Source: Candidatus Thalassarchaeaceae archaeon (GTDB lineage: Archaea > Thermoplasmatota > Poseidoniia > Poseidoniales > Thalassarchaeaceae). From it: a stretch of 64,000 nucleotides of DNA. The DNA lies in assembly GCA_943841885.1 (NCBI GenBank), contig CALSZZ010000002.1, forward strand, positions 216,262 to 280,261, given 5' to 3'. The stretch's first letter is position 1. Every line of letters begins with the position of its first letter. The position numbers and the translations under genes are program-made. Under the pieces are notes generated by a model that ran no database searches, was not told the origin of the DNA, and worked only from the letters and a program-made list of their open reading frames with translations. Below, in pieces: positions 22,231-45,190 of this stretch.

Positions 22231-23841
22231 ATGTATAATGGACAACAACCAATTTTCATAATGAAAGAAGGAACACAAAGAACAAGCGGACGTACCGCAC
22301 AGAGTAATAATATCGCAGCCGCCAAAGCCGTGGCCGATGCTGTAAGATCTACTCTTGGGCCTAAGGGAATGGATAAAATGTTAGTAGATAGCATGGGCGA
22401 CGTAGTAATCACAAATGATGGTGCCACAATTTTGAAAGAAATGGATATAGAACACCCTGCTGCAAAAATGATCATAGAGATAGCAAAAACCCAAGAACAA
22501 CATTGCTATGACGGGACTACGAGTGCAGTTGTCATAGCTGGGGAATTATTAAAAAGAAGTGAAGATTTAGTTGAACAGAATGTTCATCCAACTGTAATTT
22601 GTGAAGGATTTAGACTTGCATCCGATAAAGCGGCTGAAATGATAGAGAACCATGCGATTGATGTATCTCCTGAAACATTGGAGGAAGTTGCTAAAACAGC
22701 ATTAACTGGTAAAAGTGCGGGTGCAGTTAAAGAATTCTTGGCAGATATTAGTGTGCGTGCAGTATTATCAGTTGCCCAAGAGATTGATGGCATGATGGTG
22801 GTGGACTTAGACGATGTAAAAGTTGAGAAGAAACAGGGTGGTTCAATAAGAGATAGTTCTCTGATAGATGGAATAATTTTGGATAAAGAAAGAGTCCATT
22901 CTGGAATGCCAAGAATGGTTTCTAATTCGAAAATCGCCTTGATAAATTCTGCAATAGAAGTTAAGAAGACAGAGGTTGATGCCAAAATACAAATCACAGA
23001 TCCAAATATGTTGTCAAAATTCATGGCAGAAGAAGAGAACTATCTAAAATCATTAGTAGATAAAATATCATCAGTTGGCGCAAATGTAATTATCTGTCAA
23101 AAAGGAATAGATGATTTAGCCCAACATCACATGGCAAAATCTGGTATTTTTGCAATAAGGAGGGCCAAAAAGAGTGATATGGAGGCATTATCCAAAGCAA
23201 CTGGTGGCAATATAGTAACAAATATTGATGATTTATCTGTAGATGATTTAGGAATTGCCGCCAAAGTCGAAGAAAAGAAGATAGGTGATTCTGATATGGT
23301 ATTCATCACTGGTTGCCCTGAGGCAAAAAGTGTTTCAGTTCTGCTCAGAGGTGGTACTGAACATGTCGTAGATGAAATTCGCAGGGCATTTGATGATGCA
23401 ATTGGTGTGGTTGCAGTCGCACATGAAGATGGTGCAGTATTAACTGGAGGAGGGTCCGTTCTTGCCGCAATAAGTCGTGGCCTTCGTTCTTATGCTGAGG
23501 GCATAGGAGGAAGGGAGCAGATGGCTATTGAGGCATTCTCCGGCGCTCTTGAGGTAATACCTCGTACTCTTGCTGAAAATGCAGGACTTGATCCTGTCAA
23601 TACAATCATAGACTTACGTAAAGCTCATTCTGAAGGAAAATCAACTTTTGGAGTTAACGTATACGATGGAGGAGTTGTAGACATGAATCACGCCAAGGTA
23701 TTCGAGCCAAGTAGAGTAGTAGAACAAGCTATACAAAGTGCCTCGGAGACTGCTGTGATGATTCTAAGGATTGATGATGTTATTTCTAGTCGAAGTGCGG
23801 GTCCAATGGAAGCCGGAGAATTCGACGGAATGGGTATGTAA
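22231..23841 (+). CDS. thsA: Thermosome subunit (group II chaperonin)
   Basis: [49 protein letters not shown]. Confidence 0.97.
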
Positions 23842-23938: not shown

Positions 23939-26134
23939 ATGTCTGACAATTCTCCGCTTCTAATTTTATTTGGGTCTCAATCTGGTAATTCTGAAGAGAT
24001 AGCAACTCAAGCAGCTAAAGCTGCCACGTCACATGGCCTTCTAGCAACAGTAAAGTCCATGGATGAAACTTCAATTTCAGAGATTTCTAATAATAACAGA
24101 GTTTTGATTTGCTGTAGTACGTGGGGTGATGGAGAACAACCCGATAATGCTGAAGAACTATGGGAGGCCGTTAATGCTAATGAAGATATTAATTTAGAAG
24201 GCGTTAGCTTTTCTGTCCTTGCTCTGGGAGATTCATCATATGACTTGTTCTGTGAATCAGGGAAAGAATGGGATAATTGGTTCGAATCCAAAGGTGCAAC
24301 TAGAATACATCCTCGTGTAGATTGTGATGTAGATTATGAAGAACCAGCGAAATTATGGATGGATGCTGCTTTGCAAATTATGGCATCAGTAGAAGACAGC
24401 ACTGCCGAACAAATCCCCAAAGAATCTGTAACAATTCTCGATGAGCAAGTTGACGATGAAATCAATAGTTCTGTTGATTCTTCAGAATTCGACTCTTCAG
24501 GTATGGATGTAGACTCCTTTCTAAACGCGGGAGATAGGAGCCTTACTGTTTTATTTGGTTCGCAATCAGGCAACTCTGAAGAATTGGCCGCAAAGATAGT
24601 AAAAGAATCCTCTAAATATGGACTTATTGGAACAGTTCATGATATGGATGGTTTTGATTTCAATTCACTTTCGAAACATAAGAGAGTACTCATAGTTTGT
24701 TCAACTTGGGGCGAAGGAGAAATGCCAGATAATGCTGAAGAACTATGGAAAAACGCTAACCTTGAAAACAACCCTATCCTGAAAGGATTAAATTTTTCTG
24801 TCCTATCTTTAGGAGATTCTAGTTATGAATTATTTTGTCAATCAGGTAAAGATTGGGATCGTCGTTTTGAAGAATTAGGTGCTAATAGACTCGTTGCTAG
24901 GGTTGATTGTGATGTGGACTACGATTCCTTGGCTACCCAATGGACTTTAGAATCTCTAATACACATGTCTGCTGTAGATGGAACTGGTAATTTCCAAGAA
25001 GAAAAAATAGACTTGATTCGTAACTATGTAGACGGTTCTGACGCGGTTGGTGCAACAGGTGATGACGGTTTTAGTATCCCATCTTTAATATCTGAAAATA
25101 TACAAGTAGAAATTTCTATTTTTAGATATGATCCTGAAAGTAAATCGAGAGGAAAGGATGCATGGATTTGCTCTCTTCCAGGCCATATGTCTGTGTTGCA
25201 AACTCTAAGGACACTCAAATCCTCACATGATGGAAGTCTTACGTTCAGGGATGGATATTGCAATGATCCAAACACTGCCATTACAATAAATGGAAGATTG
25301 ACGCTACCGGGAACATTACGTCTTGATGCACTACCATTGAATGATGACGGTATTCTATCATTAAAATTGGCGCCTCTTCCATGTTTTGAGGTCATAAGAG
25401 ACTTACTTGTTGATACATGGACATTAGAAAGAAAGAGAGAATCAAGTAAACCTTGGATGGTTGCTGCTACCAGGGAAGGTAAAAGTACTCCTCAAGGACC
25501 TATGGGAACTATGTCTCAATCTACTGCGTCTTATTTGCATTCAATCAAGAACTTTCCAAGTTTTCCACTACTACATGCATGCTCTGATTCAACTCCCTTC
25601 TCAGAAAATTATATTGGGCCATCTCTAGTTGTCACTTCATGGGCTAGAAAAAATGATCCTCGTACTTCAGATACTAAAAAGTTAGAGATAGAAAACTATC
25701 TATCATCCTCCATTGGAATTAAGGCAGAGACAGATTTATCTTCAATACGCCGTCAAATATCTGTCTCTGATTCAATATCTGAAGCATTATTAGATGCAAA
25801 AACTTCCTCTCTTAATTCTGATTCTTTCAATGGAAGACACGGAAAATATGTTTGGTGGTACACTTGGTCAATCAAGAGTAGTGGTAAAGTAAATGATACA
25901 GTTATTTTTAGACAAGTATTAGGTCCTCTGGGGCTACTTAGTAATCTATTTTCAGGAGTTACTGCGAGAATGCTACTTGGATTCACTAGAACCGGAGGAA
26001 ATATGATTAACAATGGTCTAGGGATGATTCTTCCTCCTGCTGGAATCGGTAAAATGCCAAGACAATTTAATTCTTCAGTAGGAAACCATCATGAAGTTGT
26101 AGCCATATTCAATGAATTGGATGGTAGATTCTAA
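23939..26134 (+). CDS. Tandem double-flavodoxin domain protein fused to a cysteine-depleted SdhB-like region
   Basis: Two flavodoxin domains (LFGSQSGNSEEIA...LALGDSSYDLFC...RVDCDVDYEE and LFGSQSGNSEELA...LSLGDSSYELFC...RVDCDVDYDS), then FRYDPESKSRGK...LTFRDGYCNDPNTAITING...LPCFEVIRDLLVD...NYIGPSLVVTSWARKNDPRTSD, which resembles SdhB/FrdB. Confidence 0.75.
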   Translation: MSDNSPLLILFGSQSGNSEEIATQAAKAATSHGLLATVKSMDETSISEISNNNRVLICCSTWGDGEQPDNAEELWEAVNANEDINLEGVSFSVLALGDSSYDLFCESGKEWDNWFESKGATRIHPRVDCDVDYEEPAKLWMDAALQIMASVEDSTAEQIPKESVTILDEQVDDEINSSVDSSEFDSSGMDVDSFLNAGDRSLTVLFGSQSGNSEELAAKIVKESSKYGLIGTVHDMDGFDFNSLSKHKRVLIVCSTWGEGEMPDNAEELWKNANLENNPILKGLNFSVLSLGDSSYELFCQSGKDWDRRFEELGANRLVARVDCDVDYDSLATQWTLESLIHMSAVDGTGNFQEEKIDLIRNYVDGSDAVGATGDDGFSIPSLISENIQVEISIFRYDPESKSRGKDAWICSLPGHMSVLQTLRTLKSSHDGSLTFRDGYCNDPNTAITINGRLTLPGTLRLDALPLNDDGILSLKLAPLPCFEVIRDLLVDTWTLERKRESSKPWMVAATREGKSTPQGPMGTMSQSTASYLHSIKNFPSFPLLHACSDSTPFSENYIGPSLVVTSWARKNDPRTSDTKKLEIENYLSSSIGIKAETDLSSIRRQISVSDSISEALLDAKTSSLNSDSFNGRHGKYVWWYTWSIKSSGKVNDTVIFRQVLGPLGLLSNLFSGVTARMLLGFTRTGGNMINNGLGMILPPAGIGKMPRQFNSSVGNHHEVVAIFNELDGRF

Positions 26135-26994
26135 TGCCATTGAAGTATGCATATCATCCCGGTAATGTCTCTCACAGTAGCGCTCCAGAAGTTAATGATA
26201 CCGTAATCCCTTTGGCAAGATCATTGAATATAGAATTAATCCCATTGGAGGGTGCAACTAGTTGTGGCGCAGGCATTGTTCGTCAAGCTAATAAAAGACT
26301 CCAACTAACTTTGAATGCACGTACATTTGCGATGGCTGAATCTCTAGGTTTGGATATATTGACTCCTTGCGCTACTACATCAGGAAATTTAAATGAAGAC
26401 TTGTATACATTAAATAATAATCCAATTTTACTAGCAGAAGTAAATACAGTACTGCAAAAAACATGTGGTTTACAATTCAATGGCTCAATAAATGTTCATC
26501 ATTTACTCCATGTGTTAGTGGATGAAGTTGGCTTAGAAAAAGTATCTAAAGCTGTTAAAAATCCAATTAACTTCAATATTGCGGGTTACTATGGCCCGAA
26601 TATGCAGCAATCAGGGATGTGCGGAGGGGATAATCCATATGACCCCTCATATCTAGAGAAATTGATTGAAGCAATAGGGGGTAATCCTGTAATTTGGGAC
26701 AGTAGAACTCAAAGTGTTGGAGTACCAGGTTTACTTTCTGAAGAGCCCACAGTTTTGAAGCAATCCGCAAATGTAATCATGGACGCTAAAGATGAAGGTG
26801 CAGAAATTATCGTAAGTGCCTGTAATCTTTCACATACTGTTCTTGATATATATCAGGGCAAAGCATCAAGACAGGTTAAATATCCAATTAATATGCCAAT
26901 AATTCATATGACGGAACTGCTCGATTTCGCCTTTGGACATCATAATACAAGACTTGCTCAACTAAGAACCAGAATCGCGGTAATAGGTAACTAG
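26134..26994 (+). CDS. HdrB/SdhE-like (CCG domain) protein with degenerate cysteine motifs
   Basis: AYHPGN, TSCGAGIV, AESLGLDILTPCATTSGNL, VKHLL-like VHHLLHVL, GYYGPN, SACNLSHTVLD align with HdrB motifs but many Cys ligands are replaced. Start overlaps the upstream stop (TAATG). Confidence 0.75.
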   Translation: MPLKYAYHPGNVSHSSAPEVNDTVIPLARSLNIELIPLEGATSCGAGIVRQANKRLQLTLNARTFAMAESLGLDILTPCATTSGNLNEDLYTLNNNPILLAEVNTVLQKTCGLQFNGSINVHHLLHVLVDEVGLEKVSKAVKNPINFNIAGYYGPNMQQSGMCGGDNPYDPSYLEKLIEAIGGNPVIWDSRTQSVGVPGLLSEEPTVLKQSANVIMDAKDEGAEIIVSACNLSHTVLDIYQGKASRQVKYPINMPIIHMTELLDFAFGHHNTRLAQLRTRIAVIGN

Positions 26995-26995
26995 C

Positions 26996-28735
26996 CTAGT
27001 TGAATTCATCCAAGCCTCTTTGTTCATAAGAACGAAATTTATCTAATTTAACTCGGTCTTTATCCTTATTTATTTTGTCTACTATACTCTCATCATATTC
27101 AATAACTGTTGGCTCATGCAAACTCTTCTCCTTTCTAACAAATTCAGATGACGAAATAATTTTTTCATCTAATTTAACTTTAAAATTATTTAACTTACTC
27201 TTTCCTATGTGATTTGAAAAAGATAAATTTCTACTAACTCTCCGAACAACTTTGTGCATATTTACTTCTCTTTTTAGTGCTGCAGCTCTAGAATTTTCAT
27301 CCCTTGTACCTTCTGCTATTAACACAATTACCTCGCCTTCTCTCTGCCTTCCTGTACGCCCTCTTCTCTGTATTGTTCTAGTCTCACTAGAAACGGGTTC
27401 GTAGAATATAACTAAATCTGCAGTCGGGATATCTAATCCTTCTTCTCCAACAGATGTTGAAATTAGTATATTGGCAGAACCGTCTCTAAATTCATCTAAT
27501 ATCTCAATTTGTTGTTTTGGCTTCAAGCCATCTCCGCTAGTTCTATTCGATTGTCCAATAAATTTAACAGGACGAGCATCCTTTAAATCATTTAATGCAT
27601 CATTCAAAACTTTTATTGTATCTCTAAAACTTGCAAAAACTATAATTTTACTATCTGAATTTCTTCTCAATCTTTCCCTAACTAACCTTCTCACAGCCCC
27701 TACTTTGGAATGAATTTCATCAATCTGTTTAATTTCTTTCAAAAGATTTTGTATCCTCCCATCTCTCATAAAATTCTTAACAGTTTTTTTTCTATTTTCT
27801 TCTTCTAGTCTTAGTAAAAATTCCTTTGAAGCAGCAGTTCCTTGACAGAGCATATGGTTGATTAAATGATGCAATCTCATTGCAGTACCAATTTGAGATA
27901 TTGAACTATATGCAGTTTTATCTCCTCTTTTGATTGCATTTTGAGCTCTGTCTATAGCATTAGATAATCCTATGTGATTAATCTCTCCCGGCATTACATA
28001 TATTCCACGTCTTCTTTCACGATCCACTATTCCCTTTTGCCAGATTATCAATGGATTAGTGAGTAATATTATTTCTTCAGGAACATTAACTTTAATTTCT
28101 TGAATCTCTAAATTTGATAGATATCTAGATAACATAGGATCGTTAGGTGATTTTAGATATATCCTTTCCAATTTTAAATTTCTACATATTTCTTCTACTT
28201 GTCCCATACTTGACCCTGGACTAGCAGTCATTGCCAGTACTAGTGGTTTTTCTAATTTTGAATTATATAATTTTCCAACTTGCGCCATTGCATGTTTCCC
28301 AATGCAATGATGGGCTTCATCGAATATCATCAAAGAGAATCTTTTTGGATCTAGAATCTCATTTACAATATCATTCCTCACTACCTGGGGTGTGGCTATG
28401 ATTAACTTTGAGGATAGCCACATCATAGATCTTTTTTTTACATTATCCTGGCCAGTTATTGTAATGGGTAATGTATCCTCTAGAGATAATACTTTCTTAA
28501 TTCCATTGAGATGTTGATTTACTAATGCAACAGTGGGTGCTATTAGTAGAATACTTCCTATATTTTCTCTCATTTTTTCTGCTATTGCCATCCATGCCAC
28601 TGCCGTTTTACCAGCAGCTGTAGGTAGGACTAACATCGTTGAACCGCTCAATGCTTCATTTACTGCTTCAAGTTGATATGCCCGTGCTTCGATAACATTC
28701 GAAACTAAGTTTGTATGTTGTATCGAGGGGTACAT
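26996..28735 (-). CDS. Hef/MPH1-like SF2 helicase (helicase part only)
   Basis: VLPTAAGKTAVAWM, MIFDEAHHCIG, TAS, IQRRGRTGRQREGEV. Confidence 0.85.
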   Translation of the reverse strand: MYPSIQHTNLVSNVIEARAYQLEAVNEALSGSTMLVLPTAAGKTAVAWMAIAEKMRENIGSILLIAPTVALVNQHLNGIKKVLSLEDTLPITITGQDNVKKRSMMWLSSKLIIATPQVVRNDIVNEILDPKRFSLMIFDEAHHCIGKHAMAQVGKLYNSKLEKPLVLAMTASPGSSMGQVEEICRNLKLERIYLKSPNDPMLSRYLSNLEIQEIKVNVPEEIILLTNPLIIWQKGIVDRERRRGIYVMPGEINHIGLSNAIDRAQNAIKRGDKTAYSSISQIGTAMRLHHLINHMLCQGTAASKEFLLRLEEENRKKTVKNFMRDGRIQNLLKEIKQIDEIHSKVGAVRRLVRERLRRNSDSKIIVFASFRDTIKVLNDALNDLKDARPVKFIGQSNRTSGDGLKPKQQIEILDEFRDGSANILISTSVGEEGLDIPTADLVIFYEPVSSETRTIQRRGRTGRQREGEVIVLIAEGTRDENSRAAALKREVNMHKVVRRVSRNLSFSNHIGKSKLNNFKVKLDEKIISSSEFVRKEKSLHEPTVIEYDESIVDKINKDKDRVKLDKFRSYEQRGLDEFN

Positions 28736-40993: not shown

Positions 40994-41392
40994 GTGATAA
41001 ATTTGGTATCAAGAACAAATAAATTTCGTGGAAGTAGGTATCATGGCAGGGGAAAGAAAGCTGGCAGAGGTGCAGGAAAGAGAGGCGGTAGAGGAAACGC
41101 TGGAATCAATAAGCACCGTCTAATGACGAGGCTAAAATATATGCCCAGGCATTGGGGTATGCATGGATTTAACAGACACCCCAGTCTTAGAAAAGTAAAT
41201 ATTTCTATCAATTTACAAGAATTACAAAGTATTGCAGAAGGAGACTCTATCAATTTAGGAGAAATTGGCTACGATAAACTTCTAGGAAAAGGACGGATAG
41301 ATCGTCCAATAAACATAACCGTTTCAAAAGCAAGCGCTCTGGCAGTATCAAAAGTTGAAGCTGCTGGCGGTTCTGTAAATATAGAAGAATAA
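40994..41392 (+). CDS. rpl15: Ribosomal protein uL15
   Basis: KFRGSRYHGRGKKAGRGAGKRGGRGNAGINKHR; GMHGFNRHP. Confidence 0.93.
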   Translation: MINLVSRTNKFRGSRYHGRGKKAGRGAGKRGGRGNAGINKHRLMTRLKYMPRHWGMHGFNRHPSLRKVNISINLQELQSIAEGDSINLGEIGYDKLLGKGRIDRPINITVSKASALAVSKVEAAGGSVNIEE

Positions 41393-41411
41393 TACAATAA
41401 GGGGGGATTAT

Positions 41412-43346
41412 GTGGTAAATCGAAGACCAAATGTCATAGGTCTCGTAGTCCTTGCAATACTTTATTGGGGGGCGCTTTACTATTGGCTAAGAGCAGATTT
41501 AAATTCTGATATAAGAGATGTGCAATTAGATGCTTTAGTTTTATTTTCCCTATCGATACCATATGTTGCATTTGTGATGTGGGGTGCCATGACAGATTTG
41601 CCTGAGTCAGTTGCAAAGATACCTTATATAGGAAAATATATGAAAGCATTAGTTTGGATACTGATATTAATTTCTTTTGCAATATGGGCATGGATTGATC
41701 CTAGCCTAGTTGGATTCTTATTCGTTGCAATAGCTCTACTTGGCCTGCCAGTTGGATTAGCTTTAGCATGTTTCCTGTATACGGGAGATGGAGGGAGTAG
41801 ATTGTACGGTCTAAAAAGACTAGTTGATGTTTACCCAAGTATAACAAAACCAGAAGGGCATGTTAGGTTTAACCAAAAACTTTGGACAACTACTTTGGTC
41901 CTAATAATATATTTCGCAATGACCAATGTTATGATTTATGGCCTTTCAGACTCAACACTCGATATATTCTCGTCATTTAGATCTATCATGGCTGGGGCTT
42001 CAGGTTCAATAATGCATTTAGGAATTGGACCAATAGTAACAGGTTCTATCATCATGCAATTATTCTCTGGCGCTAAAATAATTCAATTAGATTTACAAGA
42101 TTCTGCAGATAAACAATTATATCAGGGAGTTCAGAAAATATTAGTTTTGATTATGATTCCAATTGAGTCAATACCTCAAGTTTATGGATTCTTAGATCCT
42201 TCAGAAACAGTCATTCTGGATTATGGAGTTGGCTGGGCAAATACATTAATTGTATCTCAATTATTCATTGGTTCTTTACTTGTATTCCTTCTTGATGAGT
42301 TAGTAAGTAAGTGGGGAATTGGAAGCGGTATATCTCTATTTATTGCTGCTGGTGTAGCACAATCAACATTCGTAGGAACTTTGTCTCCTCTTCCCACTGT
42401 ACTGAGGGTTCTGCCATTTCCATAGAAAATCCTCCTTCAGGAACTCTTCCAATGATATTTTATGTACTAAGGACTGCTTCTAACTCAGGATCTAGTATCT
42501 GATAATGGTTTCGAACTCATGCTATTGAACCATGCAAATCCAATTGCCGCTTTGATTTCCTCTATTATCGTATTCGTTGTTGTCGCTTATGCCGAATCAA
42601 GTAAATTAGAACTACCTTTAACGCATGGTAAAGTAAGGGGGCATAGAGGGCAATATCCCATCCGTCTTGTTTATGCCAGTAACATTCCTGTGATATCTGA
42701 TGGCTGCATTATTGGCAAACTTGAATATGTTCACTCTTCTATTCTGGAGCCATCCCGTTCTATCTACTACGTCCAATAATAGGTAGAAACGGTTGGGGCA
42801 GTAAGGCAGAATGGTTCGGCTCATACAAGCCAGGGGCTACGACTCCACATGATGGATTTGCATGGTACGCTTCAATGGTAAATGGTGTTGGTGATTGGTT
42901 ATTCCACTCCTCAATCAGACTGGAGACGTATATGGTCATAGCTTTACCACAAATTATGCTACATGTATTTACATATGTATTCTTCATGACTGCTGGTTCT
43001 ACGGTTTTCGCCAAGTTTTGGATAGAAACAACAAATATGGGCGCCAAGGATGTAGCAAAACAAATTGAGAGAACCGGAATGCAGATACCAGGATTCAGAA
43101 AGAACCCAGTTGTGTCTGGAGAGAATCTTGAAAGATATATTCCTCCTGTAACTCTATTCTCTGGTGCCTTCGTAGGCTTTCTAGCAGCAGGAGCTGACTT
43201 TCTCGGTACTGTGGGTAATGCTACCGGAACAGGACTCTTACTAGCAGTAGGTATCATACTCAGGACATACGAACAGATTCAGAAAGGAGCAGGCCATGGA
43301 GATGCATCCTGTCCTCCGAGAGTTCTTTGGGGCAGATTATTGTTAA
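41412..43346 (+). pseudogene. secY: Protein translocase subunit SecY, interrupted by several frameshifts (probable sequence errors)
   Basis: ORF 41412-42425, then SecY-like peptides in other frames: IENPPSGTLPMIFYVLRTAS, LLNHANPIAALISSIIVFVVVAYAESSKLELPL, NGWGSKAEWFGSYKPGATTPHDGF, and C-terminus AMEMHPVLREFFGADYC* at 43346. Confidence 0.85.
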
Positions 43347-43540
43347 ATCTAAGCTATCTGAACATATTTATCGTATTTAATGACTCCAATCTTAATATTA
43401 CTGGTAAATTCATACTCCTCAAGTCACTGTCATCATTGATACCACTGCAGGTCGGCGGACGCTACGTTAACTGGCGTTGGAGATTGAGCACCTAGTGCCA
43501 TGAGTCTTCATCAGGTTAGGACGTTGCCGAGGAAGTGCGG

Positions 43541-43722: not shown

Positions 43723-45190
<1,468 letters not shown>

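Follow-up and report, generated by a model that had tools for sequence, protein, structure and literature searches.

A flavodoxin-fused SdhB-like protein lacking cluster cysteines, and its SdhE-like partner, in the marine archaeal order Poseidoniales

The closest described relatives of the locus reported here are the E-type complex II enzymes, SdhABE(F), known from Acidianus/Sulfolobales, from Wolinella as the methylmenaquinol:fumarate reductase, and from other Thermoplasmatota. In these systems the SdhB gene is followed by an SdhE/HdrB-like gene, and both folds recur in the present locus. SdhE is the anchor subunit of the E-type enzymes, and its 10-Cys motif has been described (PMC2680327). 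A comparable pairing of an SdhB-like and a CCG part is found as a fusion in TfrB of thiol:fumarate reductase, and the CysJ/diflavin reductases combine flavodoxin domains of the type seen here with an FAD/NADPH reductase (TIGR01931). Phototrophs under iron limitation substitute iron-free flavodoxin for ferredoxin (PMC5322553). In Marine Group II, canonical complexes I and II were reported in PMC6336850, where flavodoxin is not mentioned. Both genes of the present locus were noted, without analysis, between a helicase and a thermosome gene in PMC6741140, with the annotations 'succinate dehydrogenase cytochrome b subunit' and 'sulfite reductase flavoprotein'. Metabolic models of Marine Group II that relied on these annotations would be misled. 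Among open-licence papers no description of the fusion or of the ferredoxin/flavodoxin exchange was found, in line with the initial annotation of this DNA, which treated the architecture as one not known to have been described.

The window is the whole stretch of DNA that was analysed, 64,000 nucleotides from a Candidatus Thalassarchaeaceae archaeon. The two flavodoxin domains of the fusion protein are named Fld1 and Fld2, its SdhB-like part SdhB* and the product of the following gene SdhE*. The relevant features are as follows.

22231..23841, + strand: thermosome subunit, conserved upstream neighbour, outside the unit
23939..26134, + strand: fusion protein Fld1-Fld2-SdhB*, 731 aa (open reading frame, Pfam, SdhB models)
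23963..24343, + strand: Fld1, the exchangeable first-carrier slot (Pfam Flavodoxin_1, architecture comparison)
24548..24922, + strand: Fld2, found in nearly all orthologues (Pfam Flavodoxin_1, motif conservation)
25100..25684, + strand: SdhB-like region, residues 388-582, with every cluster-ligating Cys column replaced
25685..26131, + strand: C-terminal extension, residues 583-731, strongly kept in the order (alignment, phylum search)
26134..26994, + strand: SdhE*, HdrB/SdhE-like, 286 aa (TIGR03288 4e-39, NF042965 (SdhE) 2e-32)
26996..28735, - strand: Hef-like helicase, conserved downstream neighbour, outside the unit

Pfam recognizes two Flavodoxin_1 domains in the 731-aa reading frame (E 1e-66), as the initial annotation had deduced from tandem FMN signatures. 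Fld2 displays the motifs GSQSGNSEE, STWGEGE and LGDSSY, and predicted FMN-binding motifs are present in at least 94% of the Fld domains of each class. The flavodoxin domains are of the CysJ type (TIGR01931 7.7e-85, a score below the equivalog cut-off); a CysJ-type FAD/NADPH domain is absent from the same chain. The SdhB-like region proposed to follow the flavodoxins was recovered by several means. Pfam Fer2_3 matches residues 392-493 (E 2.1e-8), the SdhB models NF004616 (E 1.6e-13) and TIGR00384 (E 2.8e-11) cover residues 388-582, and the SdhB model match reaches E 3.5e-14 when the C-terminal part is used alone. A profile of 28 SdhB* orthologues compared to the PDB retrieved SdhB/FrdB at E 4e-16 and no other convincing match. 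AlphaFold2 modelled the domain with modest confidence (mean pLDDT 57.6), and the model was used for fold matching alone; SdhB/FrdB chains occupy ranks 1 to 31 of the Foldseek results, with a best E of 6.7e-9, a target TM of up to 0.71 and about 250 aligned columns for most matches. On this ranking SdhB* has the fold of SdhB over about 250 residues. The C-terminal extension, with the motifs GFTRTGG ... HHEVVAIFNExDGRF, gave full-length matches in Poseidoniales only in a search of the phylum; outside the order, matches reach the SdhB part only.

Only four cysteines occur in residues 378-731 (positions 411, 441, 482 and 548), the number also counted in the initial annotation. In an alignment with six genuine SdhBs, one of them the canonical SdhB of the window genome, the window protein and five diverse orthologues have no cysteine in any of the 11 cluster-ligand columns. 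Cys411, the sole cysteine widely kept in SdhB* across 51 loci, sits off the ligand positions. The domain thus combines the SdhB fold with absence of the Cys ligands of the [2Fe-2S], [4Fe-4S] and [3Fe-4S]/[4Fe-4S] clusters. This loss is common to all orthologues, and the common ancestor of Poseidoniales already lacked the SdhB clusters. Two outcomes that the initial annotation had named as contrary to its reading, a predicted structure without the SdhB fold and orthologues still holding the cluster cysteines, were not observed.

The start of SdhE* lies at the last base of the fusion gene, with a one-base overlap; neither this partner gene nor the unlinked reductase described below had been considered in the initial annotation. 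The structure model of SdhE* (pLDDT 85.9) superposes on HdrB of methanogen complexes with a TM of 0.88, and the sequence matches the model of the 8-methylmenaquinol:fumarate reductase anchor. While the HdrB fold is present, the 10-Cys motif with its two CCG sites is not: the window protein retains three of the ten cysteines (C44, C79 and C230) and has lost the other seven. Only C79 and C230 are present in every SdhE* sequence. The second CCG site (CCG2) is incomplete in all of them, and the first (CCG1) is complete in 11 genomes drawn from both families, which on the SdhB*/SdhE* tree implies by parsimony that CCG1 was lost at least twice. SdhE* therefore differs from HdrB in having lost the second cluster motif in all sequences and the first in most, and in being partnered with SdhB* instead of HdrA/HdrC. 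TfrB is matched weakly (NF004898), but the two parts are encoded here by separate genes, without an SdhA partner and without clusters. One apparent read-through was seen in a Red Sea genome, where SdhB* and SdhE* form a single 987-aa reading frame (L055:3371-6331, L129:4888-7848); SdhB* ends out of frame there, and a frameshift or an assembly error is possible. An uncharacterised single-chain structure from Helicobacter pylori, PDB 3kwl, matches both folds and is the only listed structure matched by both subunits (E 8e-4 for SdhB*, 8e-10 for SdhE*); it may be a related fusion.

The C-terminal half of SdhB* was found in 97 of 98 Poseidoniales genomes, nearly all of them metagenome-assembled; the second match in one genome is a fragment. 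Loci from the two genome samplings overlap, and identical sequences were entered once in the trees. The named records carrying SdhB* belong to Marine Group II, several being labelled Thalassarchaeaceae. The gene order surface protein, thermosome, SdhB*, SdhE*, Hef helicase is the same in both families, and SdhB* and SdhE* adjoin in every locus with enough sequence. The Hef-like helicase measures about 580 aa in the window and 870-915 aa in several relatives; at L047 and L050 a separate reading frame of about 240 aa adjoins it, possibly a split-off nuclease part.

Other Thermoplasmatota possess SdhA-SdhB-SdhE operons with intact motifs, and an operon of this type is the likely source of the SdhB*-SdhE* pair. 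The pair is the SdhB-SdhE unit of an E-type complex II, differing from that enzyme in the absence of SdhA and of the SdhB clusters, in the fusion of carriers to SdhB and, in the window, in the reduction of the 10-Cys motif to three residues. The window genome retains a separate canonical SdhA-SdhB locus, and its sole SdhA-type gene adjoins the canonical SdhB, leaving SdhB* without an SdhA partner gene of its own. The idea of a second, overlooked SdhA was dismissed, the only other strong match to the SdhA family (FAD_binding_2) in this genome being NadB-like.

The N-terminal part of the fusion proved to be variable. In most orthologues the module that precedes Fld2 is a [4Fe-4S] ferredoxin (Pfam Fer4_13), which keeps its four cysteines in 58 of 59 cases, the exception being interrupted by N. 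Architectures were called by regular expression in 99 thinned loci as Fd-Fld (54), Fld-Fld (34), Fld (10) and Fd (1), at least two of the 'Fld' rows being due to a broken frame or an overlooked Fd; an Fld-only SdhB* in L178 was rejected on these grounds, the reading frame being broken and a ferredoxin lying upstream. At L015:1144-2541, a ferredoxin is fused directly to SdhB* without a flavodoxin (466 aa). Since most orthologues place an intact ferredoxin and a single flavodoxin ahead of this cysteine-free domain, Fld1 of the window genus stands in a former ferredoxin slot, and the SdhB clusters are not what it replaced. The proposal of the initial annotation that an iron-sulphur wire had been exchanged for two FMN carriers is consequently not supported. 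The window genus represents an end state without any complete cluster motif.

The slot has been exchanged repeatedly. On a tree of SdhB*+SdhE* with 99 rows, 25 architecture changes were counted, an approximate figure as the tree is a quick IQ-TREE, and 17 changes of Fld-Fld are forced by the supported branches alone. In close pairs with differing N-modules (89-91% DNA identity in SdhB*, 82-88% upstream), these modules are unrelated throughout and homology returns at the Fld2 linker. Fld1 of Thalassarchaeaceae forms mostly one clade, whose branching sometimes departs from that of the host genes (e.g. L087); this mismatch suggests a spread of Fld1 by recombination. Some Fld1 modules resemble local duplicates of Fld2. 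Misbinning is an unlikely source of the module differences, which occur inside single genes between conserved flanks; Fld-Fld was seen in single-cell genomes (L077, L094, L123) and Fd-Fld in a one-contig genome (G060, L043). In contrast to the ferredoxin/flavodoxin replacement of phototrophs, the exchange is here one of domains within a single gene, at a fixed position and many times in one order.

In 97 of 98 genomes there is one CysJ-type FAD/NADPH module, about 425 aa long. Its gene adjoins a biotin carboxylase gene and is unlinked to the SdhB* locus; the reductase lies directly before the biotin carboxylase gene in both families (e.g. L207:1618-4289), a possible operon. Within the phylum sample, the module is confined to the class and absent from the Thermoplasmatota sampled outside it. 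The f3 relatives within the class possess the reductase and lack SdhB*, four of the six sampled being also devoid of Flavodoxin_1, and the reductase can therefore serve something other than SdhB*. Assimilatory sulfite reduction was discarded as an explanation for the CysJ parts, as the sulfite/nitrite reductase domain of the CysI hemoprotein (NIR_SIR, PF01077) was found in none of 40 genomes; the hemoprotein partner of the CysJ sulfite reductase flavoprotein is thus missing from these. A further difference from CysJ is that the window genome splits the FMN and FAD halves over two genes, the FMN half residing on SdhB*. Fld1 and Fld2 of the fusion are the only Flavodoxin_1 domains of the window genome, and so the only flavodoxin partners available there to the reductase, a statement that could change as the completeness of this genome is 80%. 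Several Fd-Fld genomes (G013, G060, G064 and G067) possess no Flavodoxin_1 domain besides Fld2.

The reductase of 19 genomes bears its own N-terminal flavodoxin, as CysJ does, and in Thalassarchaeaceae this domain clusters with Fld1 and not with Fld2. A covariation test built on profile-based domain calls showed such reductases in 0 of 53 genomes where SdhB* has a ferredoxin versus 19 of 36 where it has none: 14 of 29 alongside Fld-Fld SdhB* and 5 of 7 alongside Fld-only SdhB*. The two Fld-only exceptions are G012, whose contig begins inside the reading frame, and G047 (L125), whose single flavodoxin is of the Fld1 type, and a first carrier, be it Fd, Fld1 or the Fld of the reductase, is missing in no clear case. 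The mutual exclusion of Fd on SdhB* and Fld on the reductase yields a Fisher p of 1.3e-9 on 80 rows, a value in which relatedness matters. Of 12 independent sister pairs in which the reductases differ, about 6 have the ferredoxin differing in the opposite sense and none in the same sense (median p 0.03). Since the reductase gene is unlinked, its tie to SdhB* is drawn from exclusion and covariation, which provide moderate evidence for a functional link. The covariation could be indirect, both loci answering iron supply without touching each other.

With little better than even confidence, we read the locus as supplying one half, the carriers and their scaffold, of an electron relay that is driven by NADPH, runs through flavins and was built from a dismantled E-type complex II. 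Comparison of the extant sequences shows that the Poseidoniales ancestor had an SdhB-SdhE pair already deprived of an SdhA neighbour, of the SdhB clusters and of the second CCG motif. The metal sites were lost stepwise as the protein bodies were held under selection; CCG1 disappeared at least twice, and the ferredoxin in its slot was repeatedly swapped for a flavodoxin of the kind that the reductase can also bear. The unlinked CysJ-type FAD reductase would take electrons from NADPH and hand them to Fd, Fld1 or its own Fld as first carrier, with the FAD domain as presumed donor to the ferredoxin module where present, and the first carrier would pass them to Fld2, tethered on the iron-free SdhB*-SdhE* scaffold. 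As the window SdhB* and SdhE* lack clusters and complex II-style conduction with them, the pair may be read as a docking body that no longer conducts electrons and presents Fld2 to a putative acceptor, either a partner enzyme or the quinone pool. Replacement of Fd by Fld would lower the iron cost of the unit, and the direction of change would fit iron sparing in surface water. We infer FMN content, complex formation and an iron response for the unit. A bolder reading, put forward tentatively and with less than even confidence, would place the unit in a redox enzyme class of its own, assembled from parts of complex II/heterodisulfide reductase, fully iron-free and using NADPH and FMN, with a first-carrier Fd/Fld cassette exchanged by recombination and related flavodoxin cassettes at two unlinked loci.

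Other readings were weighed against this relay. SdhB*-SdhE* might be the membrane-facing end of a ferredoxin/flavodoxin:quinone oxidoreductase, SdhE* keeping the quinone site known from E-type complex II and Fld2 reducing the quinone directly. The anchor role of SdhE in E-type enzymes (PMC2680327) and the match of the window SdhE* to the methylmenaquinol:fumarate reductase anchor model point that way, and the full CCG1 motif of basal lineages could be the last cluster of such an enzyme; CCG1 was nevertheless lost at least twice with the gene still kept, and the reading is unlikely on the whole. The HdrB likeness also raises the question of a putative thiol/disulfide catalyst, in which C79 and C230, remnants of the two HdrB cluster sites, act directly on a thiol or a disulfide. 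In favour, HdrB itself reduces disulfides, and no other cysteine of the 10-Cys motif is common to all sequences, but a one-electron flavodoxin would be unusual as a direct disulfide donor; this role is very doubtful.

Electrons might also flow in the reverse direction, a dehydrogenase docking on SdhB*-SdhE* to reduce Fld/Fd and the CysJ-type reductase regenerating NADPH. SdhB normally receives electrons from an SdhA-type flavoprotein, FNR-type enzymes are reversible, and the L-aspartate-oxidase-like (NadB) protein, the only strong family match besides the canonical SdhA, would be a candidate donor. However, NadB acts alone in bacteria, its gene is not linked to the SdhB* locus, and an SdhB* devoid of clusters would require direct transfer from FAD to FMN; reverse flow is considered distinctly unlikely. 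The loss of nearly all cluster ligands could be taken to mean that the SdhB and SdhE parts are in decay and survive solely through the need for the flavodoxins. This view is scarcely credible and was rejected, as SdhB* is under purifying selection (pairwise dN/dS 0.04-0.07), with many invariant non-Cys residues and a conserved C-terminal extension, and as the near-universal occurrence of SdhB* and the constant company of SdhE* noted above also speak against it.

At this locus an entire order has naturally retained the protein body of a multi-cluster iron-sulphur unit from which the metal sites were removed, with graded intermediates still living: first CCG site kept, ferredoxin kept and ferredoxin replaced. 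The repeated Fd-Fld exchange inside one gene is a genomic marker that could test the effect of iron supply on the redox proteins of abundant ocean archaea. Elsewhere in the window, a complete archaeal 16S rRNA gene was located at 43723-45189, with no 23S match in the window. The secY gene at 41385-43495 appears to be broken, lying in pieces in three frames around 42311-42780, and displays an odd C-terminus, for which assembly frameshifts are the likely cause.
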